Assembly (NCBI GenBank): GCA_903813345.2
Contig: CAIIXF020000009.1
Span: 5,884,030 to 5,948,029, forward strand
Reading direction: 5' to 3'
Length of the DNA: 64,000 bases
From: Owenia fusiformis
Taxonomy: Eukaryota; Annelida; Polychaeta; Sabellida; Oweniidae
Position numbers and translations under genes: made by a program. Shown here piece after piece: positions 9,001 through 53,353 of the stretch. Position 1 is the first letter of the stretch, and each line of letters begins with the position of its first letter. The notes beneath the pieces were generated by a model. That model searched no databases. It had not been told where the DNA came from and worked only from the letters and a program-made list of their open reading frames with translations.

Positions 9001-12000
9001 CCGTCCGTCCGAGCAATAACTCAAATACCGTTGGTCTGATTTTGTTCATATTTTGTACACATATACCCTATGGGGGTAGAAGTTCTGCTCGGAAGCCAAT
9101 TTTCAAAATGGCCGCTTATTTAAAAATGGCGGCCATTTTAGTGCTGATTTTACAGTAATTTAGGTGCAATATGTAAAACTGTAATGGCAATATGTTTTAA
9201 ATGTAAAAAAATTATGTAGGACATTAATAAAGCTAGAAATGTAGATAGTATAAAAGCACATGGCAGCCATCTTGAAAAATGGCGGCCTTTACTCGTTATT
9301 TTACAATTTTTGCTGTAACTCGAAAAGTAGTGGAGCGATTTTGTTCATATTTGGTATGTGAATACTATAAGCATGGCACACTGTCTAATGACACTTTTGG
9401 TAGAAGGCGGCCATTTTGAAAATGGTGGTCATTTTGAAAAATGGCCGCCATTTTAACTTATTTTACTTTAACTCGAAAAGTAGTGGAGCGATTTTGTTCA
9501 TATTTGGTATGTGAATACTATAAGCATAGCACACTGTCTAATGACACTTTTGGTAGAAGGCGGCCATTTTTCAAAATGGCGGCCATTTTAACGTATTTTA
9601 CTATAACTCGAAAAGTAGTAGAGCGATTTTGTTCATATTTGGTATGTGAATATTATAAGCATAGCACACTGTCTAATGACACTTTTGGTAGAAGGTGGCC
9701 ATTTTGAAAAATGGCTGCCATTTTTGCTATATACTTTGTTTGTAAAAATGCCAGCCATGGCTGTTCGATGGGATTCGCTACGCTTTGGCGTTGCCGTTGT
9801 TCTGGTTTAAACAAGTCATACTCTTTAAGCAACATAATATGTTTTTCAGAAAACTTATATTGCCCACTGACAAGGAATGAGTATATATTTGACATCACAA
9901 CGGAACTGATGATTCAACGCAAAGAATTTTACCTGCTTTTCCAGAGGACAAGTTGGTTTTTCCCATTGCGACTAGAAGGCAGTAGTGACCTCTATATTGA
10001 CATTATCTACAATCAGGTATCCTGAAATTTGTAAACCCTAACACAGTTAGAGATTGTCTGTGTATGCTTAGGTATTGTCATTATTTAGCGAGTCCGTTCT
10101 AATCAGATGGTGTTATACTTATCATTTCGCTCAGGGTAATCAATTATATAATAAGCAATGAAGTTGCATTGCTCAATTCTAATAATACTTATTCAATGCT
10201 CGATTTATATTAATTACAAGGCACGATAACCTGACAAGAATCTTCCTGTGTTATGGTTGAATGGATATACATTGTATATCTTTTCACTTTTGTTTGATTA
10301 TACTAAAGGCAGTCAGTGTAACCATATTCATCTTATTCATAGGCCACTCTGTTATGTTTTATCAATGAAAATGTGACTACTTCTATATAAAGTGCAGACT
10401 GGCAATTTATTCAACTAATGTCTGATTGTACTTTCAGTGCATACTGACATTATTCAGCTAATGTCTGATTGTACTTTTAGTGAATACTGGCATTTTTCAG
10501 CTGATGTCTGATCATACTTTCAGTGAATATTGAAATTATTCAACTAATGTCTGATTGTACTTTCAGTGCATACTGACATTATTCAGCTAATGTCTGATTG
10601 TACTTTTAGTGAATACTGGCATTTTTCAGCTAATGTCTGGTTGTACTTTCAGTGCATACTGACATTATTCAACTAATGTCTGATTGTACTTTCAGTGCAT
10701 ACTGACATTATTCAACTTATGTCTGATCATACTTTCAGTGAATATTGGCATTATTCAACTTATGTCTGATTGTACTTTCTGTGCATACTGACATTATTCA
10801 GCTAATGTCTGATTGTACTTTCAGTGCATATTGGCATTATTCAGCTAATGTCTGATTGTACTTGCAGTGCATACTGACATTATTCAGCTAATGTCTGATT
10901 GTACTTTTAGTGAATACTGGCATTTTTCAGCTAATGTCTGATTGTACTTTCAGTGCAAATTGACATTATTCAACTAATGTCTGATTGTACTTTCAGTGCA
11001 TACTGACATTATTCAACTTATGTCTGATCATACTTTCAGTGAATATTGGCATTATTCAACTTATGTCTGATTGTACTTTCTGTGCATACTGAAATTATTC
11101 AGCTAATGTCTGATTGTACTTTCAGTGCATACTGACATTATTCAACTTATGTCTGATCATACTTTCAGTGAATATTGGCATTATTCAACTTATGTCTGAT
11201 TGTACTTTCTGTGCATACTGACATTATTCAGCTAATGTCTGATTGTACTTTCAGTGCATACTGACATTATTCAACTGATGTCTGATCATACTTTCAGTGA
11301 ATATTGGCATTATTCAACTTATGTCTGATTGTACTTTCTGTGCATACTGACATTATTCATCTAATGTCTGATTGTACTTTCAGTGCATACTGACATTATT
11401 CAACTTATGTCTGATCATACTTTCAGTGAATATTGGCATTATTCAACTTATGTCTGATTGTACTTTCTGTGCATACTGACATTATTCAGCTAATGTCTGA
11501 TTGTACTTTCAGTGCATACTGACATTATTCAACTTATGTCTGATCATACTTTCAGTGAATATTGGCATTATTCAACTTATGTCTGATTGTACTTTCTGTG
11601 CATACTGACATTATTCAGCTAATGTCTGATTGTACTTTCAGTGCATACTGACATTATTCAGCTAATGTCTGATCATACTTTCAGTGAATATTGGCATTAT
11701 TCAACTTATGTCTGATCATACTTTCAGTGAATATTGGCATTATTCAACTTATGTCTGATTGTACTTTCAGTGCATACTGACATTATTCAACTTATGTCTG
11801 ATCATACTTTCAGTGAATATTGGCATTATTCAACTTATGTCTGATTGTACTTTCTGTGCATACTGACATTATTCAGCTAATGTCTGATTGTACTTTCTGT
11901 GCATACTGACATTATTCAGCTAATGTCTGATTGTACTTTCAGTGCATACTGACATTATTCAACTAATGTCTGATTGTACTTTCAGTGCATACTGACATTA

Positions 12001-15000
12001 TTCAACTTATGTCTGATCATACTTTCAGTGAATATTGGCATTATTCAACTTATGTCTGATTGTACTTTCTGTGCATACTGACATTATTCAGCTAATGTCT
12101 GATTGTACTTTCAGTGCATACTGACATTATTCAACTTATGTCTGATCATACTTTCAGTGAATATTGGCATTATTCAACTTATGTCTGATTGTACTTTCTG
12201 TGCATACTGACATTATTCAGCTAATGTCTGATTGTACTTTCTGTGCATACTGACATTATTCAGCTAATGTCTGATTGTACTTTCTGTGCATACTGACATT
12301 ATTCAGCTAATGTCTGATTGTACTTTCAGTGCATACTGACATTATTCAGTTAATGTCTGATCATGTTAATGTCTGATTGTACTTTCAGTGAATATTGGCA
12401 TTATTCAACTTATGTCTGATCATACTTTCAGTGAATATTGGCATTATTCAGCTAATGTCTGATTGTACTTTCTGTGCATACTAAAATTAATCAGCTAATG
12501 TCTGATTGTACTTTCAGTGCATACTGACATTATTCAACTAATGTCTGATTGTACTTTCAGTGCGTACTGACATTATTCAACTTATGTCTGATCATACTTT
12601 CAGTGAATATTGGCATTATTCAACTTATGTCTGATTGTACTTTCTGTGCATACTGACATTATTCAGCTAATGTCTGATTGTACTTTCAGTGCGTACTGAC
12701 ATTATTCAACTTATGTCTGATCATACTTTCAGTGAATATTGGCATTATTCAACTTATGTCTGATTGTACTTTCAGTGCATACTGACATTATTCAGCTAAT
12801 GTCTGATCATACTTTCAGTGCATACTGACATTATTCAACTTATGTCTGATTGTACTTTCTGTGCATACTGACGTTATTCAGCTAATGTCTGATTGTACTT
12901 TCAGTGCATACTGACATTATTCAGCTAATGTCTGATTGTACTTGCAGTGCATACTGACATTATTCAACTTATGTCTGATTGTACTTTCTGTGCATACTGA
13001 CGTTATTCAGCTAATGTCTGATTGTACTTTCAGTGCATACTGACATTATTCAGTTAATGTCTGATTGTACTTTCAGTGAATATTGGCATTATTCAACTTA
13101 TGTCTGATTGTACTTTCTGTGCATACTGACATTATTCAACTTATGTCTGATCATACTTTCAGTGAATATTGGCATTATTCAACTTATGTCTGATTGTACT
13201 TTCTGTGCATACTGACATTATTCAGCTAATGTCTGATTGTACTTTCAGTGCGTACTGACATTATTCAACTTATGTCTGATCATACTTTCAGTGAATATTG
13301 GCATTATTCAACTTATGTCTGATTGTACTTTCTGTGCATACTGACATTATTCAACTAATGTCTGATTGTACTTTCAGTGCGTACTGACATTATTCAACTG
13401 ATGTCTGATCATACTTTCAGTGAATATTGGCATTATTCAACTTATGTCTGATTGTACTTTCTGTGCATACTGACATTATTCATCTAATGTCTGATTGTAC
13501 TTTCAGTGCATACTGACATTATTCAACTTATGTCTGATCATACTTTCAGTGAATATTGGCATTATTCAACTTATGTCTGATTGTACTTTCTGTGCATACT
13601 GACATTATTCAGCTAATGTCTGATTGTACTTTCAGTGCATACTGACATTATTCAACTTATGTCTGATCATACTTTCAGTGAATATTGGCATTATTCAACT
13701 TATGTCTGATTGTACTTTCTGTGCATACTGACATTATTCAGCTAATGTCTGATTGTACTTTCAGTGCATACTGACATTATTCAGCTAATGTCTGATCATA
13801 CTTTCAGTGAATATTGGCATTATTCAACTTATGTCTGATCATACTTTCAGTGAATATTGGCATTATTCAACTTATGTCTGATTGTACTTTCAGTGCATAC
13901 TGACATTATTCAACTTATGTCTGATCATACTTTCAGTGAATATTGGCATTATTCAACTTATGTCTGATTGTACTTTCTGTGCATACTGACATTATTCAGC
14001 TAATGTCTGATTGTACTTTCTGTGCATACTGACATTATTCAGCTAATGTCTGATTGTACTTTCAGTGCATACTGACATTATTCAACTAATGTCTGATTGT
14101 ACTTTCAGTGCATACTGACATTATTCAACTTATGTCTGATCATACTTTCAGTGAATATTGGCATTATTCAACTTATGTCTGATTGTACTTTCTGTGCATA
14201 CTGACATTATTCAGCTAATGTCTGATTGTACTTTCAGTGCATACTGACATTATTCAACTTATGTCTGATCATACTTTCAGTGAATATTGGCATTATTCAA
14301 CTTATGTCTGATTGTACTTTCTGTGCATACTGACATTATTCAGCTAATGTCTGATTGTACTTTCTGTGCATACTGACATTATTCAGCTAATGTCTGATTG
14401 TACTTTCTGTGCATACTGACATTATTCAGCTAATGTCTGATTGTACTTTCAGTGCATACTGACATTATTCAGTTAATGTCTGATCATGTTAATGTCTGAT
14501 TGTACTTTCAGTGAATATTGGCATTATTCAACTTATGTCTGATCATACTTTCAGTGAATATTGGCATTATTCAGCTAATGTCTGATTGTACTTTCTGTGC
14601 ATACTAAAATTATTCAGCTAATGTCTGATTGTACTTTCAGTGCATACTGACATTATTCAACTAATGTCTGATTGTACTTTCAGTGCGTACTGACATTATT
14701 CAACTTATGTCTGATCATACTTTCAGTGAATATTGGCATTATTCAACTTATGTCTGATTGTACTTTCTGTGCATACTGACATTATTCAGCTAATGTCTGA
14801 TTGTACTTTCAGTGCGTACTGACATTATTCAACTTATGTCTGATCATACTTTCAGTGAATATTGGCATTATTCAACTTATGTCTGATTGTACTTTCAGTG
14901 CATACTGACATTATTCAGCTAATGTCTGATCATACTTTCAGTGCATACTGACATTATTCAACTTATGTCTGATTGTACTTTCTGTGCATACTGACGTTAT

Positions 15001-18000
15001 TCAGCTAATGTCTGATTGTACTTTCAGTGCATACTGACATTATTCAGCTAATGTCTGATTGTACTTGCAGTGCATACTGACATTATTCAACTTATGTCTG
15101 ATTGTACTTTCTGTGCATACTGACGTTATTCAGCTAATGTCTGATTGTACTTTCAGTGCATACTGACATTATTCAGTTAATGTCTGATTGTACTTTCAGT
15201 GAATATTGGCATTATTCAACTTATGTCTGATTGTACTTTCTGTGCATACTGACATTATTCAACTTATGTCTGATCATACTTTCAGTGAATATTGGCATTA
15301 TTCAACTTATGTCTGATTGTACTTTCTGTGCATACTGACATTATTCAGCTAATGTCTGATTGTACTTTCAGTGCGTACTGACATTATTCAACTTATGTCT
15401 GATCATACTTTCAGTGAATATTGGCATTATTCAACTTATGTCTGATTGTACTTTCTGTGCATACTGACATTATTCAACTAATGTCTGATTGTACTTTCAG
15501 TGCGTACTGACATTATTCAACTTATGTCTGATCATACTTTCAGTGAATATTGGCATTATTCAACTTATGTCTGATTGTACTTTCTGTGCATACTGACATT
15601 ATTCAGCTAATGTCTGATTGTACTTTCAGTGCATACTGACATTATTCAACTTATGTCTGATCATACTTTCAGTGAATATTGACATTATTCAACTAATGTC
15701 TGATTGTACTTTCTGTGCATACTGACATTATTCAGCTAATGTCTGATTGTACTTTCAGTGCATACTGACATTATTCAACTTATGTCTGATCATACTTTCA
15801 GTGAATATTGACATTATTCAACTAATGTCTGATTGTACTTTCAGTGCATACTGACATTATTCAGCTAATGTCTGATTGTACTTTCTGTGCATACTGACAT
15901 TATTCAGCTAATGTCTGATTGTACTTTCAGTGCATACTGACATTATTCAGCTAATGTCTGATCATACTTTCAGTGAATATTGGCATTATTCAACTTATGT
16001 CTGATCATACTTTCAGTGAATATTGGCATTATTCAACTTATGTCTGATTGTACTTTCAGTGCATACTGACATTATTCAACTTATGTCTGATCATACTTTC
16101 AGTGAATATTGGCATTATTCAACTTATGTCTGATTGTACTTTCTGTGCATACTGACATTATTCAGCTAATGTCTGATTGTACTTTCTGTGCATACTGACA
16201 TTATTCAGCTAATGTCTGATTGTACTTTCAGTGCATACTGACATTATTCAACTAATGTCTGATCATACTTTCAGTGAATATTGGCATTATTCAACTTATG
16301 TCTGATTGTACTTTCTGTGCATACTGACATTATTCAGCTAATGTCTGATTGTACTTTCAGTGCATACTGACATTATTCAGCTAATGTCTGATCATACTTT
16401 CAGTGCATACTGACATTATTCAACTTATGTCTGATTGTACTTTCTGTGCATACTGACATTATTCAGCTAATGTCTGATTGTACTTTTAGTGAATATTGGC
16501 ATTTCAACTAAAATCTAATACTTTCAACTCAAGTCATACATTCTCATACTTCCAGTGTATTCCTGACTACCTAGATGGGCTATTGCTACTCATACAAGAG
16601 GGTGGGGCACTCACACCTGAGATGACGGTAAGCAAGCAAATGATATTGTTCATTCCACTGTTGAAACACTCCAGCTTGATTTATCACAGTAAAACCTGTC
16701 TAAATAGAAAACCTTATGTACCTGTGAAAAGTGTTCCACTTGTGAGGTGTTCAACTTATGGAGGTTCATTTAACATTAGTCAGTTGGTCTTGGGACTCTT
16801 GAGAGTGTTCCACTAAAAGAGATGTTCCACTTCTAGAAGTGTTCCTCTTGACAGGTTTCACTGTAGTTCATTAACCTAAGCTACTCTTTCTAAGAGTGAT
16901 AAGTATTGACTCACACTCTTTGAATTAATGAATCAATGGTGCTATTTGCATAATCAGTTGAGTTATGTCTCAGTCAGATTTGATTTATGGCCAGTCTACG
17001 ACGGCTGTAGCTTCCCAAAATTGAGTGAAACTTGCAGCATAAGATAGGGATAAGCCTAAGTACGATGTAGATTTTCTATATTGATTTTGTGAAGCTACAG
17101 CCGTCGTAGAGCAAATGTGACTGAGTGAGGTCCGAGTCTCATCCTTTTATATCACCAATATACATCTGAACTTGCTGAGCCAATCAGAGTCTGTTATTCC
17201 TAAAAAATGGAACATTTTTTCTACAATTTATTGGACTCTCTGATTGATTCAAAGTCTAAGCTGTATAACTTACTTTTTATTCATCCACGGGCCGATCCCA
17301 TGATTCATCCTATAATGAATATAACATACAACCAAATGTGAAAAAATGTTTGTAACTCCATTACCAAGACTCACTCATTCCCATTCATACCACAGTACAT
17401 TCATTTTTGTACAATGTTTTAAATATGCCTTAAAGTCTTTATAACCCTACTATCACACCAAACTAGTTCTCACTGCGTTCTCGAAAACGGGCTTCAACTG
17501 TATACGAACGGACTGGACCTACTAAGAACCGTTTGGGATCTATTTACAAACTTCATCGAACGTACTCGAACAGGTAGATCCTCTAGAACTTAGACAATGC
17601 TCAACATGTTCTTGTGGTCGTCATGTTCTACAATTAGAACGAGTGACAACGTATTAACGACGAGCTGGACGTACTACGAACGGAACCGTCGTACTTTAAT
17701 CCTACTAGGGACGTTTTAACAACGAGTTGAACTGTATGCGGACGTGTTGAGAACGAGGTAGAACTAATTGCAAACGGGTTTAAACTGATTAAGAACGTAT
17801 TTAACACTGCTTATGAACGAGTTAGCAAAAATATAGCTATCACACCAAACAAGTTGCCACTGCGTTCTTCAAAACTGGTTTTAAACTGTGTGCGAACGGA
17901 ATGAACGTAGCTGCAACTTTCTAAGGTCTATTTACGAACTTTATGAACGTTCTCAGACGGGAATGTGATTTTAGAATTAAATTCGATGACGACCATACCG

Positions 18001-21000
18001 TTCTGTAATCAGGTCATGTTGACCTCCTAGACTAAGGGGCGCGTTCTACGACGTTGCACTCTGACGTGGTGCGACCTGAACGAACTGCGAATGAGATGGA
18101 CGTATTGAAGACTGTTTAAGAACGAAGAAGCTAATTATTTCAAACATATTTCTCGACCACAGCCAGATTGAGCCCGTTTGACGACGTTTTCGTAGGACTG
18201 GCAAGAATGGGTAATAACTAGTTTGATGTGATAGGGGGGTAATTTGGAATCTCTGGTTGCAATGTCCTGTTATAAATGTAGTACATGGCTGTATTTTGTA
18301 ATAATAATGACCCTATTTTCAAAATCACTCCATTGAGAGCTACCAAATAATACTGATTATAACATACCTATGATGATGTATAGTGCAAAGTGTACACAAG
18401 ACAGCGGGCCAATATAAGTTTTGAAAAGCCCGCGCCCGCTAACTTTCTGATTGGTCAAGCGCTGGGACTACTTTCCCAACATCCGGGTACTTTTCTTCCT
18501 GCCGATAAACAAAATGGATTTTGCTTTCGATGACGATTTCAATGAATTAATACAACTTTTTGAGGATGATATTGATGCAGTTGAAGACCTGTCTGTTAAA
18601 CGGGATAACTTAAGACATTTTGTAGAACAGCAGGAAAAAGCTAGCACTAAATCTAAAACTAGTTCGGATATAAAAAGATTTTTGGATTTTCTACCTAAAA
18701 ATGAAAAAAGACCCGTAGAAACAGTGAGTAGACTCTAAATATTATCCTATATATTCGGTCCCTGGTAATCAAGAATCTAATTTTTGGACAACATGTACAT
18801 GTTACATTATATCAAGCAGTTCTTACAGATTTTGTCAATTTCTTCCTTCAATTATGTTGCTAAACTTGTTCCCCCGGCCCGGCTACCCCACGGAGATAAG
18901 TGTCTGACCCGGCCCACCAGTCTTTAGGCCCCGTTTAGGCAGTTACTTACAATGTTCTTATATCATTACTTCCAGATGCCGTCAGAAGATCTAGCCATAT
19001 ACATCTCAGATTTTATAGTGAATATTCGCAAATGTGGAGGGACGGAACAATATGAACCCAATACCCTCACATCTTTCGTCCATTCTATTGAACGATATCT
19101 CGGCAAACATGGGTATGAACATTCAATAACACGTGATAAACAGTTCAAACTAGTGCAGGATACTCTTAAAGCAAAAAGGGTGGAACTTCAAAAACTCGGA
19201 AAAGGTCGTAAACCGAATGCTTCGAGCCCATTTTCTCCGGAGGAAATAAATTTACTATGGGAAAAGGGAATCTTGTCTAGTGACAAGCCATGGAATCTTC
19301 AGTTTTCTATGTGGTTTTTTATCACATTGCATTTTGGCTTCAGAGCACGCGATGAACATCGTAAGCTGCAATGGGGGGATATCATACTGTCCACGTCTTC
19401 AGGAGGTGAGGAATATTTGGAGCTGAAAGTTTTTCGTGGTAGTAAGACGCGAGATGGCTCTGTGGAGGATAAAATGGACACACGAAAAACGACACCTAAA
19501 ATCTTTGCTACTGCGACAGATAGATGTCCCATAAAATTTTACAAAGAGTTCCAACGACATAGAATTGTATCGAACAGTAAACCTGATTCGCCATTTTACC
19601 TCACCCCAATCCCTGAGAAGAGACTAGTCAAAACCAATGATTCGTGGTACTATAGCAACGCTATGGGGAAAAACATGCTGTCTACTTTAGCCAAGAAGGC
19701 CTGTGAAATGGCTGGTATTACTACACGTCATACTAATCACGGAGTAAGAAAAACTCTGGTTGAGACAATGACCAAAAACAATGTTGACCGATATGATCAA
19801 ATGCATATTACTGGACACAAAAATCCAAAATCAATAGATGAATACAATAGTGGACTGAACTTGAAGAAACACGAAACTATTTCAAAAGCTCTATCCGTCG
19901 CATCTGGGTCCCTAATGCCCGAAATGTCGGCCCTTGTTCCCTCTGGATCGAATACCACATCAAAGGTCCCTCCAGCAAATGTATACAACAATTGTACTTT
20001 TAATGTGTTTACATCCACCAACACTCAACAAATGATATCCTCAAGCCAAAGTCCACCTATTGGGGCACTAGCTCCAAAATACAGGAGGATTACAATAGCA
20101 GAGAGTGACTCTGATGATGACTTGTAGGCAGGCTACCAAGTCGTGGGAATAGTGACTAATACACATTGATATAATAATGTTTTTTTTGTTAATTAATGTT
20201 TATTGAAAACGTTATTATTGTAACTTTATTGTAGGCTAGCAATTGTGACATGTATACATGTAATACAATGCAATTATGAACATGAACTGAATTGTTTCAA
20301 TAGTTTCAATATTGAATATCATGGTGACCCTTTTAGGTGTAGGATCCTCTTCATAGACTACATGTATTTTTTTTATGTTGGTTGCCCTTATTTCATGTAT
20401 TTCTGAAATTCAGTCACATATAGGGGTTATTAAGTGCAATGGGTTTCCCAGGGAATTCCCTCCGTTTGTCATCGTCTGATGAATCATCATTGACTTTGAT
20501 TTTTACTACTAGTCCGCCAAGAAAATAGTTCCCTCACAAAAAACAGTGCACACACCAATCGTAATTTATTTCACGTAACATTACAAATAAATACATCACA
20601 AATAATTTTATATAAATTTATTGGTGAATCATGTTTATTGATAAATTTGTGTCCAAAGGTTGTTTTCAGTTGATCGGTTAGTTTTATCTCCAGTTGATCG
20701 GTCAGTATTCGCGTAGTAATACATTACGTCATTAGGTCTAAATGACTCGTACATTCTTAGAAGATACAAACATGGGAATCAATCATTATTTCCGAACAAT
20801 TGCTAGTCAATTAAATAAGAAAACAGTACTCTCTGACCAGTCGGCATCACCATAGGTATGTTATAAATCGTTTATGTCACTATCGTTGCACATATGCCCT
20901 CGGTTCTCAGTGATCAATGTCCCTCCCAAGGTCGGGCCATATATCACTGAAAACCTCGGGCATATATGCAACGATAGTGACATAACCTCTAAATAACTAT

Positions 21001-24000
21001 CAGTTCTAGTCAGAGGGCATATTTAGTTTAGATACTGATCTCAGGGTATGAGTTCTCTCAAAGAGGTGAATTGTTTGTGTTCCAGATGGATGTTGCCAGA
21101 TTGGCCGCCCTTCAGCACAGAGCTAGTGGACTTAACAACTTACCTACTGTGTAAGTAATTATCTATTGAGAAATAAATATAAATAAAACATTGTCATGGA
21201 AGTACATGTACATAAACAAAACAATAAAAACAATACACAAGCTGTGTCCATAACAATGTAAGTCATTATCTATTTAGAAATAAATATAAATAAAGCAGGA
21301 AAACATTGTCATGGAAGTACATGTACACAAACCAATCAATGAAAACACTGTACAAGCTTTATCCGTGTAAAGTAGTGCCTAAAAATGTTTTGACAATGTC
21401 TGTTGTACCTGCAGGAAGGATGTGCAGTCCCTACTTCCAGCAGTTATTCCAGACCTGCCCAACATGAAACCACAGCAATGGGTGAATATTGTACATGATA
21501 AACTAGAGGAGACAACAAAGTTTACACCCACTGGGGCCAAGGCTGCTTTCTTGGGTAAGTTCTTTCATGACGTTCAGGTGCATTTTGTCCAATTGAACAA
21601 AGTTTGGGGATATAGAGAAAGCCAACACCCAATCCGTCTTTCTGTCCATACTTCCATTCATCTATCCATCCAAATGTCCATATGTGCATCCATCTATCCA
21701 TCTGTCCATCTGGATGTCTGTATATCCATATGTCCATCCATTCATTCATCAATCCATCCATCCATTCATACATCCAACCACCATCCATCCTTCCATCTAA
21801 CCTACGTCCATCCATCCAACCATCCATCCATCTGTCCGTCCGAATGTCTGTATATCCATATGTCCATCCATGGGCTTTCAACTCTAATTGAAAGCCCATG
21901 GTCCATCTAACCAATAATTCAAATAGTGTTTGCCAAATATTGTTCATTTTATAGATTCATATTCCAAAAGAAGTAAGATATGTGTGGACAATATAATCAC
22001 TGGATTTCAAATTGTGCATTTTGTGTTGTCATTGTCAACTCATAGTATCAAAGGAATCATAAAAAAGCAAAATGGCTATAGAAAAGCCTCATTCACATTT
22101 GCTCAATAGCAGCTGTAAGGCGGATATAGCTTCACAAAATCGATATAGAACATCTACTTCATACTGCTTATCCCTATATGCTGCATATTTTTCTTGATTT
22201 TGGGAAGCTATGTCCGTCATACGGTTGACGTAGGTTAAATGTGACTGAAGCATTATGTACTATCAATTTTAGATATACCAACTATAAATTTCTTTCAGTG
22301 TCATTGAGATATATTTCCAGGGTATATCTCACATTAATGAGTTATGGAATTAACCAAAACATGAAACATGGATTCGGATGAATAATTCGAAGACAATAGC
22401 ATTTATATCCACTCGAATTAACGTCATTTGTGGAATAGTAGGATTATTGGACCATGATCGGATTTCAGCAAGCATTATTAATCTTAATATAAAGGGACTA
22501 ATCTCTTTATCACATAAATATTTGTTTACTCGATAAGATGATGAGATTGAATGTACCCTGTATTATCATCAACTAGGTACACTCTCCTCTTACATTCAAG
22601 ATCATTCCTAACCTTGCTAGCTTTTGCTATATATGGACTACTTGTACATCAAAACATCTCGAATTTATCTCTCTTTAAGAGTGGAGACCAAAGCAAAAAC
22701 TTTTCCAGTAGTGAAGTATACAAGTTAATTTCACTAAATAATATTAATTATGGCTGTAATAATCTGTTTACAAATATCAGAAAATCAGACTTTGTGAAAA
22801 GTATACCGAGACTGCCATATTCCGGCATGCATGTCCTTATTTTTTTGTTATAATTGCTTGGGAATGTTAAATACACATCGCCATAGTAATGCGTAGGCAG
22901 CAAAATCAGTATACATGATCAGGGCCACAATTTATTTGTTTTTTAACCTTCATCCAACATAGCTTTACTATAACACATTCTTCCTCTATATTACATGGAT
23001 GTACCTGAGACTTCATTGTAACATCTGTATGGTATCCTAACACCCCTATGGTAACAATATAACTGTTATTTATATATTTAATATAATTGTGCAAAGATAA
23101 TTGTTACAATGAGACAATTAAATAATTGTAATGGAGAAATGGGAATGCATATTTTTAGTTTTGATATTGATTGGACTTAATGCTTCTTTAAATATAAAAA
23201 TGATACTAATCTATCTAACCAATCATTGAGGAAATCTGATTACTCGATCATCCATTTTTAAATAAAAGATTCACAAAAATCCAATAAAATACAGGGTGAT
23301 CAAGAAGAAAGATCAAAGATATTGCCATTTCAATATAATATATATGTACGTATTACTGAAGGAATGATCTTAAAATTTGATACAGATGTTCCAAAAACAT
23401 AACTGAGTTATTACCAAAAGATATTTGATCACAATAAAAATTACAAATCTTTCCTATGGTTATCCAGATCCTTTCCCCCTTTTCTTGTTTATTTTTTACA
23501 ATCACTGCATATAGAAGAACCATTGTAATATACCATGGCAATATCCTTTGTGAGAAAGGAAATGTGCATGATGAACATCTACCCAAATGTATAAAACCTA
23601 GAAAAAGAAACTTAATTTGCGTGGGAAGGATAATAGATGTCTGAAGGGGATTGTTAAATAATCACTTTTATGAAACAATCATAAATATGATACGACCACT
23701 TTAAATCACCATTTGGAGACAATATTATCTCACAAAATGTCAATCAAATAAATCAACTCATTTTTTTATCAACTCATTTTTTTATTGAGGGATTCTATTT
23801 GTTAGTTTTAATTTTAGTGTCCAATATTTTTTTCTCAGATTGACTAGACAGTATGGTATATACTTTATGACTAGTTAATTGATACAAAATGAAATAATCT
23901 GTCAATAAAATGTCTCTATTGTTTTTCCCTGTATAGTGTATTGCTATGACGATACTATGGTGACCATCTGTTTGCTTTCCCAAGATATTTTTACGATGGA

Positions 24001-27000
24001 TGAAAGACAATAATATTTAATTGTTTAATTGGTCATAAACTCATTAATGTTGGACTTTTATTTCTATCATGAACAAAGTTAAGAGTCTGTAGTCTAATAA
24101 AATGGATCTGTCATGCTGTAAGGTTCCATACTCCCCCAAGGTATACATGTATATGTTTTCTTAATTGGCTTTTCAGTATATACAAAATCTGATATATATT
24201 TGTATGATTTGTATGTGCTGTTTTTCGAAGTAGGATTTATATGCGATTATATATTGTTATTCTTTCTGTACAATCTTGTTGATCATATAATACAAATTTC
24301 CAATTAGTGATTGAATATAATGCAGGGACCTTTAAGGTATAGGAATTTCTCATTAGTATGGGTTAGGTTATGGGGATGCCATTTATCAAAGCATTTTTTA
24401 CAATATTGCAAAATACTTGATAGAACTATTTTATAAAGTGGTAAAATTTCCCTCAACAATTATGGTGAGCACGCCTGTTGTCAGGGGGCTCTGTTAGGCT
24501 TCATTTGATTGCTGTCACGCGGGAAATCTCTGACCTGATGCCTTTTTTCAAAATATATATTTGTAGTAACCTTGAATGATTAACCATTTGTATTCCAGAC
24601 ATCCTATCTAAGTGGTCACTGTACGGGTCAACGTTCTTTTCTTCAAAATACATATTTGTAGTAACCTTGAAATTTATACATGTACAAACCATTTGTATTC
24701 CAGACATCCTATCTAAGTGGTCACTGTACGGGTCAACATTCTTTTCTTTAAAATACATATTTGTAGTAACCTTGAAATATATACATGTACAAACCATTTG
24801 TATTCCAGACATCCTATCTAAGTGGTCACTGTACGGGTCAACATTCTTTTCTTTAAAATACATATTTGTAGTAACCTTGAAATATATACATGTACAAACC
24901 ATTTGTATTCCAGACATTCTTTCAAAGTGGTCACTGTACAGGTCAACATTCTTTTCTTCAAAATACATATTTGCAGTAACCTTGAAATATATACGAGGGG
25001 TGATCCAAAAGTCTTGGACGCCCCGCTCTAACTTTGCTATTTTCTAATATAATTACATGAACCTTTCAGATAATAAAGATCAACATCTTAACAACGTTGT
25101 GTATAGGTTTCAACAGAAAATAATATATTTTAGCTACTTTTCTAAATATATTTTGATACCGGGTCCTTGCCACCCGGAACGGTATTTAAATATAGCAAAT
25201 CACGTAACAACTGTTATAATATGTATTAAAAATTTCCGATTTCTAGTCAGAGTGTCATCTGCCATCATCATCTTCACATATTAAGACCTACTTTTCAACA
25301 TATTTCCACGAATTTGAACACATTTTTCATACCGCTTTACCAATGAATGAAAGACATTTATGAAACCGCTATTGCTTATGTTATACAAATGCTGCTGGAG
25401 TGCCACTCTAAATCTCATCCAATGAGTAAAAAACATTTTCTTTCAACCCTCCATTCAACTTGGAGAAAAGAAAGAAAATCACACGGAGCCATATCTAGAC
25501 TGTATCGTGCATATGATAGCTGCTCAAGGTCAATAATAGTGAAAATATATTGTAGTATTCTTTGTTCCACTTTGATTTCTTTCATGTTCTGCATTTTAGC
25601 AGCCATCTTGGAGCAAAAATGATACCAGAATGAGTGTTGATTGTCTAATGTCATTTTCTTAGAACTTGACATATACGGCCATTATCATATGTGACATTAT
25701 GATTAAAACACAATTAATTGGTTGCCTAGTATCAAAGGAAGTTAACTAACATGCCTTAACATTCAAAATTTAAGGAAAGATAGTGGTCAAGACTTGCTAA
25801 ACATGTCAAATAGCGGCAACATTTAAGGCTGAAAGTTGCCATGTGCGAATACCGTTCTGGGTGGCAGGGTCACTATATTAATAACTATCGAGAAAACTAC
25901 ATAAAATATATCATTTCACCATAAAATTAATACACAAAGTAGTTAGGTTGTTGGTCTTTATTATTGGAAAGTTTAAAGTAATTTTATCAAAAACCAACAA
26001 AATTAGAGCAGGGCGTCCAAGACTTTTGGATCACCCCTCGTACATGTACAAACCATTTGTATTCCAGACATCCTATCTGAGTGGTCATTGAACGGGTCAA
26101 TGTTCTTTTCTTCAAAATACATATTTGTAGTAACCTTGAAATACATGTACAAATCATTTGTATTCCAGACATTCTTTCGAAGTGGTCACTGTACAGGTCA
26201 ACATTCTTTTCTTCAAAATTCATACTGTATTTGTAGTAACCTTGAAATATATACAGGTACAAACCATTTGTATTCCAGACATTCTTTAAAAGTGGTCATT
26301 GTACGGGTCAACATTCTTTTCTTCAAAATACATATTTGTAGTAACCTTGAAATATATACATGTACAAACCATTTGTATTCCAGACATCCTTTCGAAGTGG
26401 TCACTGTACGGGTCAACATTCTTTTCTTCAAAATACATATTTGTAGTAACCTTGAAATATATACATGTACAAACCATTTGTATTCCAGACATCCTTTCGA
26501 AGTGGTCACTGTACGGGTCAACGTTCTTTGCTCTGAAGGCTGTTGGTGATGCAAGAATTCCCTCTCGCTGTCTCTTAGCAATCAACAAGAAAGGAGTCCA
26601 TTTCTTGGATATTATGTCTCATGTGAGTACATTCATTAATGAATGCTTGCTTTCTTGTATAAATAAATAGATGATTTCAGTCTTTTAACACTGAATCATG
26701 TATCATGCCATAATTCATAAAATATGAATTCCATTATGTATATTTACAGCACTTTTCACAGTCAAAATTTGCATACACAGTTGAAAAAATATTTTTCACT
26801 GACCTTCATTTATTAAGGTTCAAAAGATGGGGAAACAAATTTGTTCCTAATTAAGAAAAATCAATTGTTGATGAGCTGTGATTTTGGATTTGCATACATG
26901 TACAAGGCAATTCAAGGCAATTCCTGATGTTCTTCAAAAATAGCTTTTTTAGTATTAACAAATTGAAACACTTCTAGTGGAACACCTCTAGAAGTGGAAG

Positions 27001-29185
27001 ACCTCTTTTAATGGAACACTTTTCAAATTCCCAAGATCAACTGACTTAATGTTAAATGAACCTCTATAAATGGAGCACCTCCCAAGTGGAACACCTTAGA
27101 GGTACCAAATGTGTTCCACTAAGACTTTTTTCTGTATATAATATATGTAAAGTCAAAAATCTTTTTTTGACCCTCCCATTAGTACTCCAAATGCATTGAT
27201 TGCAAGGGTAATTTGTCATTGGAATAGGCAATATAACTTTTTTGTCTACAATTGTATATGATTTATATTATTTCTAAGAATGATACAAAGTGTCCCATTT
27301 TTATTGCCCACCCTGTTAATGTTGTCCCATCCCTTCGACCTTCAAAGAGCTGTCTAGAAAGCCAATGATTAATAAAAACAGAAATTCTCAAAAACTGTCT
27401 CATTTTTTTAATGGAAAGTCTAGACAATTCCAAAGAACCAGGCTTGGTATGGTTGGTGATTTAATTGTAGAAATCTCTTCAGAAATGCAAACCTTGGAGG
27501 AGTGACTTCAAAAATTCACGGTCAGAGATAAAAAATCACATTCCACGCCTGGTCACCCAATTTATGCAGTCTGTTAATACTTATTTGTTAAACAATTAAT
27601 AAAAAAATTTCATATCACCACCACAAATGGTGACATATTGTTATGGTCTCAAACTTGTTCAGCATTTGTAACAAATGGCAGGTGGTAACATTTTGCATGT
27701 TAATGCCTTGTCTAAATATGCTTTAACAATTTATTGAAGTACATGTACTTGGCAAGTTTTCCCCTGAACATGTTATATATGCTTAGTATGTGTATTGTTA
27801 CTTGCTTTTCTTCAGGCTGTACAGATATCTTACTCATTTAGTGACATTATATCTTCACGGAGATTCAAGAGCGAAGCAGGGGTGCAATTCCTCGATATGA
27901 AGTGTGGGAACCTCATGATGCAGAAAGTCACTCGGATAGAAACCGATCAGGTAAGAAAATCACATGGAGAGTAACAATAATTGGATTATGAAAGATTAAG
28001 TAAGATAATTATTACTTGGATAGAGACCCGTCACTTTCATCAGAGGGGGCTAATTTTTCAAGGGGCTTTAGCATTCGCCCAAAATGCCAATTTGGACCAG
28101 ATGTATGCCAATTTTGACCAAAATTTAAATCTGACCCAAAATTTTCCTTCGAAATCTTGGGGCTTATTTGAGTTCATCGAGCCCCTTTTGGGTATGGACA
28201 TGATTAACAAGATCAGTAAGTACTAGTCAACACAAAATCTGAGTTATTATCGAAGGTATACATTTGAAATAAATGCCAGATACATCATTCCTTTCAATGA
28301 GACTTACTGCAATCATGCCTAAATGATTCCACATCCTGAAGACTCACTAATTAAGAACTATTCATCTATGTCATCAATAATTGAATCAATAGAAACTATT
28401 ACAACAGGATTAAGTAGTTATTTTCCTAACTAGCGATGTTGCATTATTTGAAGGTTAAATCATTTGCAACAGTAGTTTTACTCTTTCAGAGAATAATCAT
28501 CTATAATCCACCATATCAATATAGATTCCTTTGTAGATTACTCTACTTTTATACTATTTGTAATTATTGTGAAATGTATTGAATCCTGCTTTTATATAAG
28601 CATAATGCCTAGAGGAACAAACATACAAGTAAACAAACCAATGAACAAACATACAAGTAAACAAACCAATGAACAAACATACAAGTAAACAAACCAGTGA
28701 ACAGACATACAAGTAAACAAACATACAAGTAAACAAACCAGTGAACAGACATACAAGTAAACAAACATACAAGTAAACAAACCAATGCACAAACATACAA
28801 GTAAACAAACATACAAGTAAACAAACCAGTGAACAAACATGCAAGTAAAGAAACATAAAAGTAAACAAACCAGTGAACAAACATACAAGTAAACAAACCA
28901 ATGAACAAACATGCAAGTAAAAAAACATGCAAGTAAACAAACATACAAGTAAACAAACCAGTAAACAAACATACAAGTAAACAAACCCCAACTTCTCATT
29001 CAATGATCAATCTCCAAAATAGTTTTGAAAAGAGCCCTCATTCCCCAACTGTCATGTATACTTAATTGAAAAATATATGAATTGCTGTGATTGAATATTT
29101 CATTTGTATTTTCCAGGGAGCTGAGATATCATCACTTATAGGACAATACATTCAATTGATAAGCAAAGGACGGCTCCCTAAATGA
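1..29185 (+). CDS. Unconventional myosin heavy chain, C-terminal MyTH4-FERM tail (myosin XV/VII-like), 5' partial
   Basis: Sixteen exons join in frame to give the last 572 residues: 1-40, 792-892, 3382-3485, 4694-4752, 5519-5591, 7068-7144, 7604-7686, 7904-8034, 8385-8654, 9850-10016, 16556-16627, 21086-21150, 21415-21554, 26489-26622, 27816-27950, 29117-29185 (TGA). Every junction is GT-AG and every phase fits. Residues about 30-220 form a MyTH4 domain ([20 protein letters not shown] and RGWRLMSIM blocks). About 230-315 is FERM F1, 370-460 F2 and 462-570 the PH-like F3 ([14 protein letters not shown]). In this family MyTH4-FERM tails bind cargo and microtubule or adhesion proteins at actin-rich protrusions. 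The order and the end of the protein resemble the second MyTH4-FERM module of myosin XV or VIIa. Motor, neck and any SH3 domain lie upstream of the window, so the exact class is inferred. Long introns are filled with repeats. Confidence 0.92.
717..756. repeat. Dispersed repeat 'gtaacaaatggcaggt', copy 1
   Basis: The core 'gtaacaaatggcaggttg' followed by 'gacatttt' and 'atgttaatgc' recurs in two other introns (6134-6175, 27665-27705) in the same orientation. Boundaries are approximate; family unknown. Confidence 0.5.
792..892 (+). CDS. Myosin exon b, start of MyTH4
   Basis: Encodes a Ser-rich linker and then [17 protein letters not shown], the opening helix of a MyTH4 domain. Enters in phase 0 after an ag at 790-791 and leaves two bases (AG) before gtatgt. 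Confidence 0.88.
1645..3234. mobile_element. Pogo/Tigger-like MITE expanded by an internal 20-bp minisatellite
   Basis: Perfect 12-bp terminal inverted repeats (acagtaaagcct and aggctttactgt), each with TA at its outer edge, enclose about 1.6 kb. The interior from about 1790 to 3130 is a tandem array of a roughly 20-bp unit (tgatgttcattcatattcaa and 'ttttcaa' variants). CAGT termini with TA target sites are typical of pogo/Tigger elements. The open frame at 2554-2754 is array read-through. No transposase is present. Confidence 0.65.
3382..3485 (+). CDS. Myosin exon c, MyTH4 linker
   Basis: Accepts the two leftover bases of exon b to give [20 protein letters not shown], then a Lys/Ser-rich stretch, and leaves one base for exon d. 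Only this frame is open. It lies just after the TIR-bounded minisatellite at 1645-3234. Confidence 0.8.
4694..4752 (+). CDS. Myosin exon d, MyTH4
   Basis: Encodes [14 protein letters not shown], the conserved Trp-Lys-x-Gln segment of MyTH4 domains. Starts after tttttag-type acceptor at 4692-4693 and ends in phase 0 before gtatat. Confidence 0.9.
4880..5475. repeat. Minisatellite, 17/20-bp units
   Basis: Tandem copies of 'acatatgattgtctgtt' (17 bp) alternate with a 20-bp form carrying an extra 'cta' (actacatatgattgtctgtc). It fills the intron between myosin exons d and e, with no unique spacers. Confidence 0.9.
5519..5591 (+). CDS. Myosin exon e, MyTH4
   Basis: Encodes [20 protein letters not shown] and continues ECFI. 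The 'SPIQxSLL' block is typical of MyTH4. Leaves one base before gtaagt. Confidence 0.9.
6134..6175. repeat. Dispersed repeat 'gtaacaaatagcaggt', copy 2
   Basis: Second copy of the motif seen at 717-756: 'gtaacaaatagcaggtggtg' then 'acatttttcctgttaatgcc'. It lies in the intron before myosin exon f. Confidence 0.5.
7068..7144 (+). CDS. Myosin exon f, MyTH4
   Basis: Encodes [20 protein letters not shown] and continues [13 protein letters not shown] is among the best conserved MyTH4 motifs. Consensus tttgcag acceptor and gtaagt donor. Confidence 0.95.
7604..7686 (+). CDS. Myosin exon g, MyTH4
   Basis: Encodes [20 protein letters not shown]. The RDEVYxQ(L)xKQ motif is diagnostic of MyTH4. Leaves two bases (CC) before gtaagt. 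Confidence 0.95.
7904..8034 (+). CDS. Myosin exon h, end of MyTH4
   Basis: Encodes the [20 protein letters not shown] block and the final MyTH4 helices ([12 protein letters not shown]). Leaves one base (G) before gtgtgt. Confidence 0.93.
8100..8360. repeat. Minisatellite, about 30-bp unit, next to an acceptor
   Basis: Copies of 'gttcatgcctgtctaat' plus 'cttgtctaagcag' repeat up to 25 bp before the acceptor of myosin exon i. Each unit ends in an 'agcag' acceptor-like motif. The 5'-most copies (caggctttggcttgtct) look like the exon start (caggcttggcttcag). Confidence 0.8.
8385..8654 (+). CDS. Myosin exon i, FERM F1 lobe
   Basis: Longest coding exon of this part. It completes the MyTH4-FERM junction ([19 protein letters not shown]) and encodes the ubiquitin-like F1 lobe, including the [20 protein letters not shown] region. 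Consensus gtaagt donor. A 30-bp minisatellite ends 25 bp upstream. Confidence 0.93.
8941..9774. mobile_element. Dispersed repeat with 'ggcggccatttt' tandem core
   Basis: Starts 'atcccatcgaacgaagttcg' followed by a cgtccgtccg tract, and ends with the inverted motif 'gttcgatgggat'. Inside, a unit of about 140-150 bp (gaaaagtagtggagcgattt ... ggcggccatttt) is present three times (about 9322, 9474, 9609). Open frames here (9441-9707 and 9653-9898 minus) are repeat read-through. Class unknown; the short inverted ends suggest a non-autonomous DNA element. Confidence 0.55.
9850..10016 (+). CDS. Myosin exon j, FERM F1-F2
   Basis: Encodes [20 protein letters not shown] and continues to IDIIYNQ, the F1-F2 linker region of myosin FERM domains. 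An open frame upstream (from 9711) is read-through of the repetitive intron. The intron that follows is 6.5 kb and almost entirely minisatellite. Confidence 0.92.
10380..16495. repeat. Large minisatellite, 43-bp unit with acceptor-like core
   Basis: About 140 tandem copies of a 43-bp unit: tgtctgattgtactttcagt, then gcatactgacattattca, then 'gctaa' or 'actaa'. Variants include 'gatcatactttcag' with 'gaatattggc', and 'ctttctgtg'. Most units contain a pyrimidine run plus CAG like a 3' splice site. The array ends 60 bp before the true acceptor of myosin exon k. A 2123-bp block (11271-13393) is repeated at 13394-15516. Confidence 0.95.
16556..16627 (+). CDS. Myosin exon k, FERM F2
   Basis: Short exon encoding [20 protein letters not shown] and PEMT. 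The acceptor (catacttccag, ag at 16554-16555) resembles the acceptor-like core of the 43-bp repeat that fills the preceding intron. Consensus gtaagc donor. Confidence 0.85.
16686..16864. mobile_element. Pogo/Tigger-like MITE, unexpanded copy
   Basis: A 179-bp element with imperfect 15-bp terminal inverted repeats (acagtaaaacctgtc and gacaggtttcactgt, one mismatch). The interior has 'gttccacttctagaagt' and 'gttccactaaaagagat' modules. Same family as 1645-3234 and 32980-34264 by termini, and as 26955-27140 by interior. Confidence 0.65.
16970..17130. mobile_element. Palindromic MITE, copy 1
   Basis: Near-perfect inverted arms 'tctacgacggctgtagcttc' (16995-17014) and its complement at 17091-17110 lie inside weaker outer arms (ctcagtcagatttg and caaatgtgactgag). 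A related element in the opposite orientation is at 22094-22255. Confidence 0.65.
17450..18234. mobile_element. Non-autonomous 'gaacg'-rich element with TIRs
   Basis: Terminal inverted repeats of 19 bp (ctatcacaccaaactagtt and aactagtttgatgtgatag, one mismatch) bound a 785-bp region full of gaacg/acgaac motifs. A second internal start (ctatcacaccaaacaagtt near 17836) suggests two tandem, partly decayed units. A diverged copy in reverse orientation is at 43345-43905. No coding capacity seen. Confidence 0.6.
18514..20127 (+). CDS. Crypton-type tyrosine recombinase (DUF3504 family), two exons
   Basis: Exons 18514-18723 and 18976-20127 (TAG at 20125-20127 preceded by an acidic end) join in phase 0 through a gtgagt donor and a tacttccag acceptor to give 453 residues. 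The catalytic set of tyrosine recombinases is present: Arg193 in GFRARDEH, His325 and Arg328 in HGVRKT, His351 in ITGHKN and Tyr360 in DEYN. Residues 1-70 are an acidic helical start, 71-170 the probable core-binding domain, 170-370 the catalytic domain, then a Ser/Pro-rich tail with the 'NNCTFNV' motif. Crypton enzymes move circular DNA by strand exchange; animal genomes also hold domesticated relatives (ZMYM, QRICH1, KCTD types). It lies on the + strand inside a myosin intron and has no stop or frameshift, so it is recent, active or domesticated. Start ATG 18514 was chosen over earlier in-frame codons because it opens the conserved acidic stretch. Confidence 0.85.
20828..21030. mobile_element. 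Hairpin (inverted repeat) element
   Basis: Arms of about 43 bp (20872-20914 and 20943-20985: ttatgtcactatcgttgca and complement, catatgccctcgg and complement) flank the short loop 'caatgtccctcccaaggtcg'. Weaker pairing extends outward (ctctctgacca / tagtcagaggg). It lies 55 bp before myosin exon l. Confidence 0.6.
21086..21150 (+). CDS. Myosin exon l, FERM F2
   Basis: Encodes [20 protein letters not shown] and TV, the F2 helix in which the protein 'loses' or aligns A-x-L-Q motifs of FERM domains. Leaves two bases (GT) before gtaagt. The preceding intron hosts the Crypton-type gene. Confidence 0.9.
21415..21554 (+). CDS. Myosin exon m, FERM F2 end
   Basis: Encodes the [20 protein letters not shown] segment and [10 protein letters not shown], equivalent to the 'AKxAFL' end of F2 in myosin tails. 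Leaves one base (G) before gtaagt, matching the phase of exon n. Confidence 0.92.
21640..21905. repeat. (CATC)n-rich microsatellite region with terminal palindrome
   Basis: Degenerate 'catccatccatc' with a repeated 'atgtctgtatatccatatg' module (21713 and 21844). The long open frames on both strands (21422-21910 plus, 21522-21947 minus) are exon m read-through and its complement. A 14-bp-arm palindrome (ccatgggctttcaa) at 21868-21901 ends the tract. Confidence 0.8.
22094..22255. mobile_element. Palindromic MITE, copy 2 (reverse orientation)
   Basis: Aligns with the reverse complement of 16970-17130: 'tcacatttgctc', 'atagcttcacaaaatcgata', 'gcttatccctat' and 'gattttgggaagctat' in the same order. 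Its arms have decayed more than those of copy 1. Confidence 0.6.
22256..24579. other. AT-rich intron, nothing recognised
   Basis: Part of the myosin intron 21555-26488. Scattered short open frames on both strands (for example 22551-22853, 23353-23586 minus) show no family motif and no splice support. I see no gene or clear repeat here. Confidence 0.5.
24994..26040 (-). mobile_element. Mariner-like element inserted in the 105-bp array
   Basis: Terminal inverted repeats of about 30-42 bp begin 'cgaggggtgatccaaaagtc' on both strands, and TA flanks both sides (24992-24993, 26041-26042). Removing 1049 bp restores the array: 24913 to 26067 becomes exactly 105 bp. Length 1047 bp is shorter than typical intact mariners (about 1.3 kb), so it is internally deleted or decayed. 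Confidence 0.9.
25300..25672 (-). pseudogene. Mariner transposase remnant (C-terminal part)
   Basis: The minus-strand frame from 25672 contains [14 protein letters not shown], equivalent to the 'SPDLAPCDF' motif that carries the third catalytic Asp of mariner DD34D transposases. Downstream, residues matching the C-terminal region ([12 protein letters not shown]) are broken by stops. The N-terminal DNA-binding part is not recognisable. Inactive. Confidence 0.75.
26489..26622 (+). CDS. Myosin exon n, FERM F3 start
   Basis: Encodes [20 protein letters not shown] and [18 protein letters not shown], the first strands of the PH-like F3 lobe. The acceptor chosen (ag 26487-26488) is the last of nine near-identical acceptors 105 bp apart; only after this one does the sequence continue into conserved F3 coding. 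Donor gtgagt. Confidence 0.9.
26955..27140 (-). mobile_element. Pogo/Tigger-like MITE interior copy, reverse orientation
   Basis: The reverse complement matches 16686-16864 through 'gaggttcatttaacatta', 'gtcagttgatcttggga' and 'gttccattaaaagaggtctt'. Its termini have decayed (only 'ctgta' remains near 27133). Confidence 0.6.
27665..27705. repeat. Dispersed repeat 'gtaacaaatggcaggt', copy 3
   Basis: 'gtaacaaatggcaggtggta' then 'acattttgcatgttaatgcc', matching the copies at 717 and 6134. Lies 110 bp before myosin exon o. Confidence 0.5.
27816..27950 (+). CDS. Myosin exon o, FERM F3
   Basis: Encodes [20 protein letters not shown] and [20 protein letters not shown]. Phase 0 at both ends, ttcttcag acceptor and gtaaga donor. 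Confidence 0.93.
28612..28988. repeat. Minisatellite, 12/16-bp modules
   Basis: Modules 'aaacatacaagt' and 'aaacaaaccagtgaac' alternate through the last myosin intron. Open frames on all three minus-strand frames (up to 149 residues, Cys/Leu/Phe/Val only) are repeat translation and not genes. Confidence 0.9.
29117..29185 (+). CDS. Myosin exon p, C-terminus and stop
   Basis: Encodes [22 protein letters not shown] and TGA (29183-29185). The final 'EISxLIxQYI' helix closes the F3 lobe as in other myosin tails. No convincing AATAAA was found close downstream. Confidence 0.92.
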   Translation, partial: GAEISSLIGQYIQLISKGRLPK

Positions 29186-50761: not shown

Positions 50762-52200
50762 ATATCACCTTCAACTTTTCAGGGATAACTTATGAGTGCA
50801 TACAGATATGGATGAAAGTTTTCGATACCTACTTCCTGTCGGCCATTTTGAAGTCAAATGCTAAAATCCATGTCTGCAAACCTTTAGAAAAACGGCTTCA
50901 CAGTTGCTTTTAAAACGTTGACATCTTGTTCAGCTCACTTCATTCTACATCTGGATAGGTTTTGGACCTGTTAGCTCAGTCATGGCGGCCATTTTGAATG
51001 TCTTAAGAAAAGTTAGCGTGCAATAATACTTGAGTTGTCATACTTTAACTATTTAGTAGCTTTATGAATAATTTCAGGTGTACTTTGCTGTAAAAGCCTA
51101 TGTTATTGTTAACAGTAGTTATATGCGATAATTTTGTAAAAATATATCAGCAAAAACTCACAATCACTTTTTTGTTGTCGGCCATTTTGGATTTTCCATC
51201 CTAAAATCTTGTCTGTAAAGTCTTGTCTACGCGTTTGGTAGATCAATTTCAAAGTTTCAGGAATGATTCTTATTATGAAAATCTAGATCTAATTAGTATT
51301 TTTGCATTCTGGGTAAATGTCAAGGCAGTCATTTTGGATTTTCCGTCCTAAAATCTTTTCTGTAAAGTCTTGTTTACGCGTTTTCAGGTGAACCGTTAAG
51401 TAGTTCAATTTCAAATGTTCACTGATGATTCTTAGTATAAAACTCTTGAACCGATTCGTTTTTTGGCATTCTGGGTAAATGTCAAGGCATAACTTATGAG
51501 TGCATACAGATATGGATGAACGTTTTAGATACCTATTTCCTGTCGGCCATTTTGAAGTCAAATGCTAAAATCCTTGTCTACAAACCTTTAGAAAAACGGC
51601 TTCACAGTTGCTTTTAAAACGTTGACATCTTGTTTAGCTCATTTCATTCTACATCTGAATAGGTTTTGGACCTGTTAGCTCAGTCATGGCGGCCATTTTG
51701 AATGTCTTAAGAAAAGTAAGCGTGCGATAATACTTGAGTTGTCCTACTTTAACTATTTAGTAGGTTTATAAATAATTTCAGGTGTACTTTGTTATAAAAG
51801 CCTATGTTATTGTTAACAGTAGTTATATGCGATGATTTTGTAAAAAAAAATCAGCAAAAACTCGCAATCATTTTTTAATTGTCGGCCATTTTGGATTTTT
51901 CCATCCTAAAATCTTGTCTGTAAAGTCTTGTCTCCGCGTTTTCAGGTGAACCGTTTGGTAGATCAATTCCAAAGTTTCAGGGATGATTCTTTTTATGAAA
52001 ATCTAGATCTAATTAGTATTTTTGCATTCTGGGTAAATATCAAGGCAGCCATTTTGGATTTTCCGTCCTAAAATCTTGTCTGTAAAGTCTTGTCTACGCG
52101 TTTTCAGGTGAACCGTTAGGTAGATCAATTTCAAATGTTCACTGATGTTTCTATAAAACTCTAGATCTGATTATTTTTTGTCATTTTGGGTAAATGTTAA
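50676..52200. repeat. 'cacatagtgtgggg' repeat family, copy 2
   Basis: Same head and tandem body as 45296-47010, in the same orientation, with the 'tcatggcggccattttgaatg' block present twice (50983, 51684). The minus frame 51289-51561 is repeat translation. Confidence 0.75.
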
Positions 52201-53340: not shown

Positions 53341-53353
53341 TATCCGAACCTCA

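Follow-up and report, generated by a model that had tools for sequence, protein, structure and literature searches.

The myosin gene and its exons

The window considered here, the whole 64-kb stretch of DNA that was analysed, contains exons e2-e16 of a gene, and these exons when joined give a single frame of 559 residues terminating at a stop. Pfam matches on the joined frame identify MyTH4, the central domain of FERM and a PTB-like lobe at the C-terminus, and among solved structures the product comes closest to the C-terminal tails of myosins VIIa and VIIb. Myosin motor exons lie upstream on the same contig and the same strand and presumably form one gene with the MyTH4-FERM exons. The product of exon 14, the exon of main concern here, aligns with residues 415-454 of myosin VIIa chain 5mv9. 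The features of this part of the gene are as follows (positions are those of the window; a slash marks the splice boundary).

21415-21554, + strand: exon 13 ('m'), the upstream exon, 3' end TTCTTGG/gtaagt, phase 1
21555-26488, + strand: intron 13, 4934 bp, bearing the array
26489-26622, + strand: real exon 14 ('n'), 134 nt, FERM, donor CAT/gtgagt
27816-27950, + strand: exon 15 ('o')

Other elements are also present in the window. Within intron 11 of the myosin gene an open frame (18928-20124) has DUF3504, phage-integrase-like and QRICH1 matches, and is probably a Crypton-type element. Astacin metalloprotease exons are found downstream of the myosin gene (44947-45474 and 60586-60861), a related 162-bp unit makes up two separate arrays (45892-46993 and 51885-52195), and an open frame at 53330-54142 was recognised by eye as resembling a reverse transcriptase portion.

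Repeated acceptors ahead of exon 14

Intron 13 ends in a series of nine acceptors, the G of the AG lying at 24598, 24703, 24808, 24913, 26067, 26168, 26278, 26383 and, for the real site, 26488. An earlier note on this DNA had given these nine coordinates, all of them exactly, and its description of tandemly arrayed 3' splice sites, each carrying the FERM exon start and eight of them decoys ahead of the real site, is borne out. Each acceptor has the sequence CATTTGTATTCCAG/ACAT, after which ~42 nt correspond to the beginning of real exon 14; past this point the decoy copies revert to intron sequence and the real exon alone continues. The units thus span the exon-intron boundary as had been claimed, but the exonic part is ~42 of 105 nt, and the proportion of exon to intron is nearer 40:60 than half and half. 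The spacings from acceptor to acceptor are 105, 105, 105, 1154, 101, 110, 105 and 105 bp, so that the 105-bp period noted earlier holds for most steps but not for the unit interrupted by a transposon (1154 bp) or for those of 101 and 110 bp. Tandem Repeats Finder reports the array as a left block (24582-24994, 105 bp x 3.9, 97% matches) and a right block (26041-26529, 105 bp x 4.6, 90% matches). The individual copies are listed below.

24540-24598, + strand: single-copy left flank of copy 1, by alignment homologous to the unit's intronic half but diverged from it (ancestral left edge)
24599-24703, + strand: decoy 1, ~42 nt exonic plus the intronic part up to acceptor 24703
24704-24808, + strand: decoy 2
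24809-24913, + strand: decoy 3
24914-26067, + strand: decoy 4, transposon-interrupted
26068-26168, + strand: decoy 5, 101-bp unit
26169-26278, + strand: decoy 6, 110-bp unit
26279-26383, + strand: decoy 7, carries an in-frame TAA
26384-26488, + strand: decoy 8; its acceptor (26383, against the real 26488) would lengthen the exon by 105 nt and the product by 35 residues without a frameshift

The recurrence of splice sites was examined by comparing 40-mers of 15 acceptors and 15 donors with all 15 introns of the gene at a cut-off of at least 26/40. The exon 14 acceptor gave eight matches in its own intron, the best at 40/40, and the other acceptors gave a single, borderline match (that of e5 in intron e2-e3, 26/40); none of the 15 donors matched any of the 15 introns at this cut-off. 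Since only the exon 14 acceptor recurs, eight times, within its own intron, the array exceeds chance expectation. A genome-wide search with the 105-bp unit, in which the best candidates from the 498-Mb assembly were scored, found it at this locus only. In this assembly 12 contigs of 32-62 Mb make up 96% of the sequence, and the stretches read have a G+C content of ~34%.

The six intronic minisatellites of the myosin gene (window 1784-29117) are without exception closer to the acceptor than to the donor of their intron (P 0.0026 against a uniform distribution); this acceptor-side bias is weaker in other genes, where 14 arrays surveyed have a mean relative position of 0.39. A 43-bp minisatellite of ~142 copies (window 10391-16511), many with an acceptor-like TACTTTCAG, stops 44 nt short of the real exon 11 acceptor. 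Derivation of this array from that acceptor was suggested by eye and was rejected, the ungapped match of 22/40 being not above chance.

A transposon within the array

The long step between acceptors 24913 and 26067 is caused by an insertion that the earlier note had not recognised.

24994-26040, + strand: mariner-like element, 1047 bp, TA duplicated, within one array unit

The element has terminal inverted repeats of ~210 bp that are 77% complementary, and removal of the 1047 bp together with one TA reduces the 1154-bp gap to 105 bp. A first look at the genome gave 525 candidate members of the family, and among the 40 that were scored those closest to this element share 91% identity with it. 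When six copies were compared, the element in the array showed private differences at 19 of 934 columns, or ~2%. As it fits inside one unit with its TA duplication, the array predates the insertion: it already had at least two copies when the transposon arrived, and the element has since gathered ~2% change, which makes the insertion datable given a rate.

The insertion also bears on whether the array could be an artefact of assembly, a possibility that the earlier note had raised. Tandem arrays are difficult to assemble. Against this, a transposon with its target-site duplication lies inside one unit, the copies have diverged from one another by substitutions and by indels of 4-5 nt, and 14 similar arrays, some on other chromosomes, occur elsewhere in the same assembly (see below). 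An artefact is accordingly an extremely improbable explanation.

Splice-site strength and the consequences of decoy use

Splice sites were scored with an acceptor and donor matrix built from the myosin gene itself together with predicted myosin and kinesin sites, the training set including the real acceptor. The nine acceptors of the array occupy ranks 1-9 among the 197 AGs of intron 13, on a matrix trained partly on the same gene. Eight of them, the real site included, score 12.4, and the highest score, 13.6, belongs to decoy 26168. All eight decoys keep the AG and score no lower than the real site. In a recursive splice site, or ratchet point, a donor GT comes immediately after the acceptor AG; none of the nine acceptors is of this kind, the AG being followed by AC in each (CCAG/ACAT).

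The donors are distributed differently. Of all GTs between 24590 and 26640 the true donor of exon 14 scores highest (7.6), and outside the transposon and the real exon no donor scores above 3.5, as compared with 5.0-12.8 for the gene's 14 donors. The only sites in the array region besides the true donor that reach this range, at its low end, are two in the transposon, at 25181 and 25977 (5.3 and 5.4); the element contains another at 4.3. A cryptic exon using donor 25181 or 25977 is possible on these scores.

The consequences of decoy use were followed in silico by splicing each decoy to the true donor. Seven of the eight (24598 to 26278) run into a stop, and decoy 26383 alone stays open, adding 105 nt and 35 residues in frame. 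It could be proposed that the array is put to use, alternative acceptors giving rise to longer FERM isoforms and chiefly to one with 35 additional residues via acceptor 26383. Such a use would be consistent with a 105-bp unit that is divisible by three, with a last decoy that is open to the true donor and with a score for acceptor 26383 equal to that of the real site. The stops that follow seven of the eight decoys argue against it, as does the nature of the insert itself, which would probably duplicate one strand of the FERM C-lobe and bring in 21 residues encoded by the intron. In view of this and of the further evidence given below we consider the use of longer isoforms unlikely.

A different role for the decoys would be regulatory, in that they may sequester splicing machinery and so cause intron retention or poison transcripts. 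The presence of eight strong acceptors ahead of the real one, the stops to which most decoys lead and the donors of 5.3-5.4 in the transposon could all be cited for this, whereas outside the transposon no decoy is accompanied by a donor in the gene's range. Taken with the pattern of variation and the other arrays of the genome, this makes regulation by sequestration very unlikely.

Variation among the copies

The copies were aligned over 102 columns and change events were counted. The 42 exonic columns hold 12 events and the 60 intronic columns hold 8 if copies 2-9 are considered, or 11 if all are; the coding half of the unit is no less variable than the intronic half. With regard to possible concerted evolution within the cluster, from which the edges would be exempt, copies 24703 and 24808 are near identical and copy 1 has a diverged left edge, as read from one haplotype. 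The splice-site stretch from -20 to +3 is slightly less variable than the rest (P 0.04 when copy 1 is set aside, 0.07 otherwise). This might be taken in favour of a regulatory role for the decoys, but the reduction is not significant over all copies, and special protection of the decoy splice sites was rejected on that ground.

The earlier note had also stated that the copies carry FERM coding sequence. The start of the exon is indeed present in each, but the copy at 26278 has an in-frame TAA, so that it does not encode the 14-residue peptide given in the note, and those at 24913, 26067 and 26168 have amino-acid changes. Over 14 codons the decoys differ from the real exon by 11 variants, of which six are synonymous, four change an amino acid and one is nonsense. 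The synonymous share of 6/11 exceeds the 23% expected (P 0.023), and this excess would be in keeping with the production of longer isoforms. The variants shared by at least two decoys are synonymous in six of seven cases, as compared with none of the four that are private to one decoy (Fisher P 0.015); the latter comprise three amino-acid changes and one nonsense codon, which speaks against such isoforms. We read the shared variants as old, deriving from copies of a functional exon, and the private ones as young and free of constraint. Alternatively, the synonymous excess could reflect past use of some of the copies.

The sequence evidence as a whole favours the decoys being ignored by splicing, because seven of eight lead to stops, all four private coding changes are nonsynonymous or nonsense and there is no comparable donor outside the transposon.

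Boundary arrays in other genes

Similar arrays, which the earlier note did not report, were sought in the same genome in 46 regions covering 168,846 bases, of which 15 contain motor exons of myosins and 31 those of kinesins. The regions were chosen by exon matches only (67 of the 93 listed for myosin, and 98 of 99 for kinesin, taken from 147 listed), and arrays were detected by tandem-repeat search, self-comparison and reading. In 11 of the 46 regions 14 further boundary-spanning arrays were found, eight of acceptor type and six of donor type.

L025 (G000:C4:24495400-24504700), one myosin gene: acceptor, 91 bp x12; acceptor, 260 bp x4; donor, 83 bp x7
L032 (G000:C2:23265500-23270000), kinesin intron: acceptor, 159 bp x18 (one step 158), ~128 nt of exon each, near-identical
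L034, kinesin: acceptor, 42 bp x3
L038: acceptor, x3, irregular spacing
L041 (G000:C6:40704200-40710500), kinesin exon end: donor, 57 bp x17 (53-59 bp spacing)
L041: acceptor, 154 bp x2
L051: acceptor, 53 bp x2
L054: acceptor, 87 bp x3
L020: donor, 34 bp x4
L021: donor, degenerate, x5
L026: donor, 41 bp x4
L040: donor, 91 bp x2

Two more arrays, at L036 and L042, overlap matched exons and were excluded from the count. The splice dinucleotide is kept in 47/47 acceptor copies (AG) and 38/39 donor copies (GT), figures to which the search motif contributes by selecting for similarity. The kinesin array of 42 bp at L034 would, like that of exon 14, keep the frame, which would suit the production of longer isoforms. 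Across all nine acceptor arrays, counting that of exon 14, splicing to the nearest decoy would put the reading frame out in six and run into an in-frame stop in one, leaving two open, and this argues against such a use. The variety of unit lengths, the occurrence at both acceptors and donors and the unrelated genes involved are reminiscent of mutation and not of regulatory design, which further weakens the case for sequestration.

The frequency of such arrays was assessed by an automatic rule applied to the 142 acceptors and 154 donors that remained from 165 exons after junctions with low predicted scores had been dropped. A tandem copy on the intron side was found at 6/142 acceptors and 4/154 donors; the resulting 10/296 junctions are a lower bound, as the rule missed the 91-bp and 83-bp arrays of L025 as well as L026 and L032, in which the exon was unmatched or the predicted site wrong. 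The same rule applied to noncoding positions gave 1245/11583 upstream and 1268/11583 downstream (~11%), a background that includes the boundary arrays and excludes positions within 60 nt of matched exons. A preference of the arrays for splice junctions was rejected, the rate at junctions being below that at noncoding positions in general. Given 10/296 junctions against ~11% of noncoding positions, the boundary arrays look like part of the general minisatellite load, with fewer surviving at junctions, although myosin and kinesin genes may not represent the genome.

One portion of the myosin head (approximately profile positions 18-84) is matched twelve times in succession at G000:C9:37986009-37994334 on the minus strand; these matches are perhaps an alternative-exon cluster in a muscle myosin gene.

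Relation to known systems

The published systems are compared here on the basis of parts of the papers cited. Minisatellite-like tandem duplications of exon-intron boundaries have been described in amphioxus, where they were named 'mirages' for Adh3 (PMC3087553), and others have been reported in the globins BflGb6 and BflGb9, troponin C and PGBD5 (PMC3087553, PMC3902484). The exon 14 array is a mirage, since its tandem unit contains the exon-intron boundary and the AG is kept in 9/9 copies; membership of this known class was not mentioned in the earlier note. The amphioxus mirages likewise consist of boundary-spanning tandem units at an acceptor or a donor, often with AG or GT kept, and BflGb6, in which the 3' end of the intron is repeated with the 5' part of the next exon (PMC3087553), has the same anatomy as the array of exon 14. 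RT-PCR has shown that the amphioxus mirages leave regular splicing undisturbed (PMC3087553, PMC3902484). Regular splicing and length instability have been demonstrated there, while the exon 14 array is known from its sequence. It also differs from the amphioxus mirages in being divided by a transposon and in the organism concerned, those mirages all being from lancelets. The present genome is not that of a lancelet, as a search for innexins gave 34 matches, among which eight at separate loci are nearly complete, in comparison with the one innexin of lancelets (PMC8769644). Hemerythrin and COX1 were sought and not found, results of little weight for placing the animal. In the parts of the open-access literature consulted no case of mirage-type boundary repeats outside lancelets was recognised, and in the consulted parts of a report on earthworm metallothionein the intronic minisatellites are not boundary-spanning (PMC12783039). 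Mirages therefore apparently occur outside chordates, and the class is a known one that has rarely been noticed.

Near-identical repeated splice sites are also found in human coagulation factor VII (F7), which has 37-bp repeats at the donor of exon 7/intron 7. Several near-identical repeats occur there, the first of which contains the splice site, and the most upstream donor, which is the exon-proximal one, is normally used alone (PMC6627357). F7 differs from the array of exon 14 in that a donor is involved, at one human locus. Mutually exclusive tandem exons resemble the array in placing tandem exon-derived copies within one intron, but they are whole exons, whereas the copies seen here are exon starts of ~42 of 134 nt without a donor; an arrangement of this kind was ruled out, as there are no complete exon copies and donors other than those of the transposon and the real exon score 3.5 at best. 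In the model of intron gain by tandem duplication (PMC3087553) a duplicated boundary likewise offers spare splice sites. The exon 14 array differs in that the frame and phase of the exon are intact and no new intron is evident.

Origin and significance of the array

We are fairly confident that the array is a tolerated by-product of a minisatellite-rich genome, a mirage in which the exon-proximal acceptor is used through exon definition. A segment across the boundary of intron 13 and exon 14, comprising ~60 nt of the intron end and ~42 nt of the exon start, would have undergone a head-to-tail duplication, after which ordinary repeat turnover raised the number of copies to nine. As the rest of exon 14 follows the last copy only, a normal mRNA would result if the exon-proximal acceptor is chosen. 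That choice may be made by exon definition: the nine acceptors are locally equivalent and only the last sits 134 nt from the true donor, so that a decoy acceptor would have to extend the exon across the array or pair with a different donor. The decoy copies would then behave as intron and drift, probably with neutral effect, and the older shared variants may date back to copies that were in the functional exon. The undisturbed splicing of the amphioxus mirages and the sole normal use of the exon-proximal donor in F7 agree with this reading. Less in accord with it are the synonymous excess among the decoys, the slightly quieter splice-site stretch, the open frame behind decoy 26383, the higher score of decoy 26168 and the two transposon donors within the gene's range.

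A wider proposal, which we advance tentatively and consider possible rather than probable, is that this non-chordate genome contains a genome-wide population of junction minisatellites, probably thousands, at acceptors and donors and with up to 18 sites per intron. A strict exon-proximal rule would render them harmless, with an occasional in-frame insert where the length is divisible by three (here 35 residues in the FERM domain of a myosin). The choice among equally strong splice sites has usually been studied with engineered duplications. A natural test set is available here, with nine equal acceptors in intron 13, 18 in one kinesin intron and 17 equal donors in another, and in genomes with such arrays gene finders may misplace the ends of exons.
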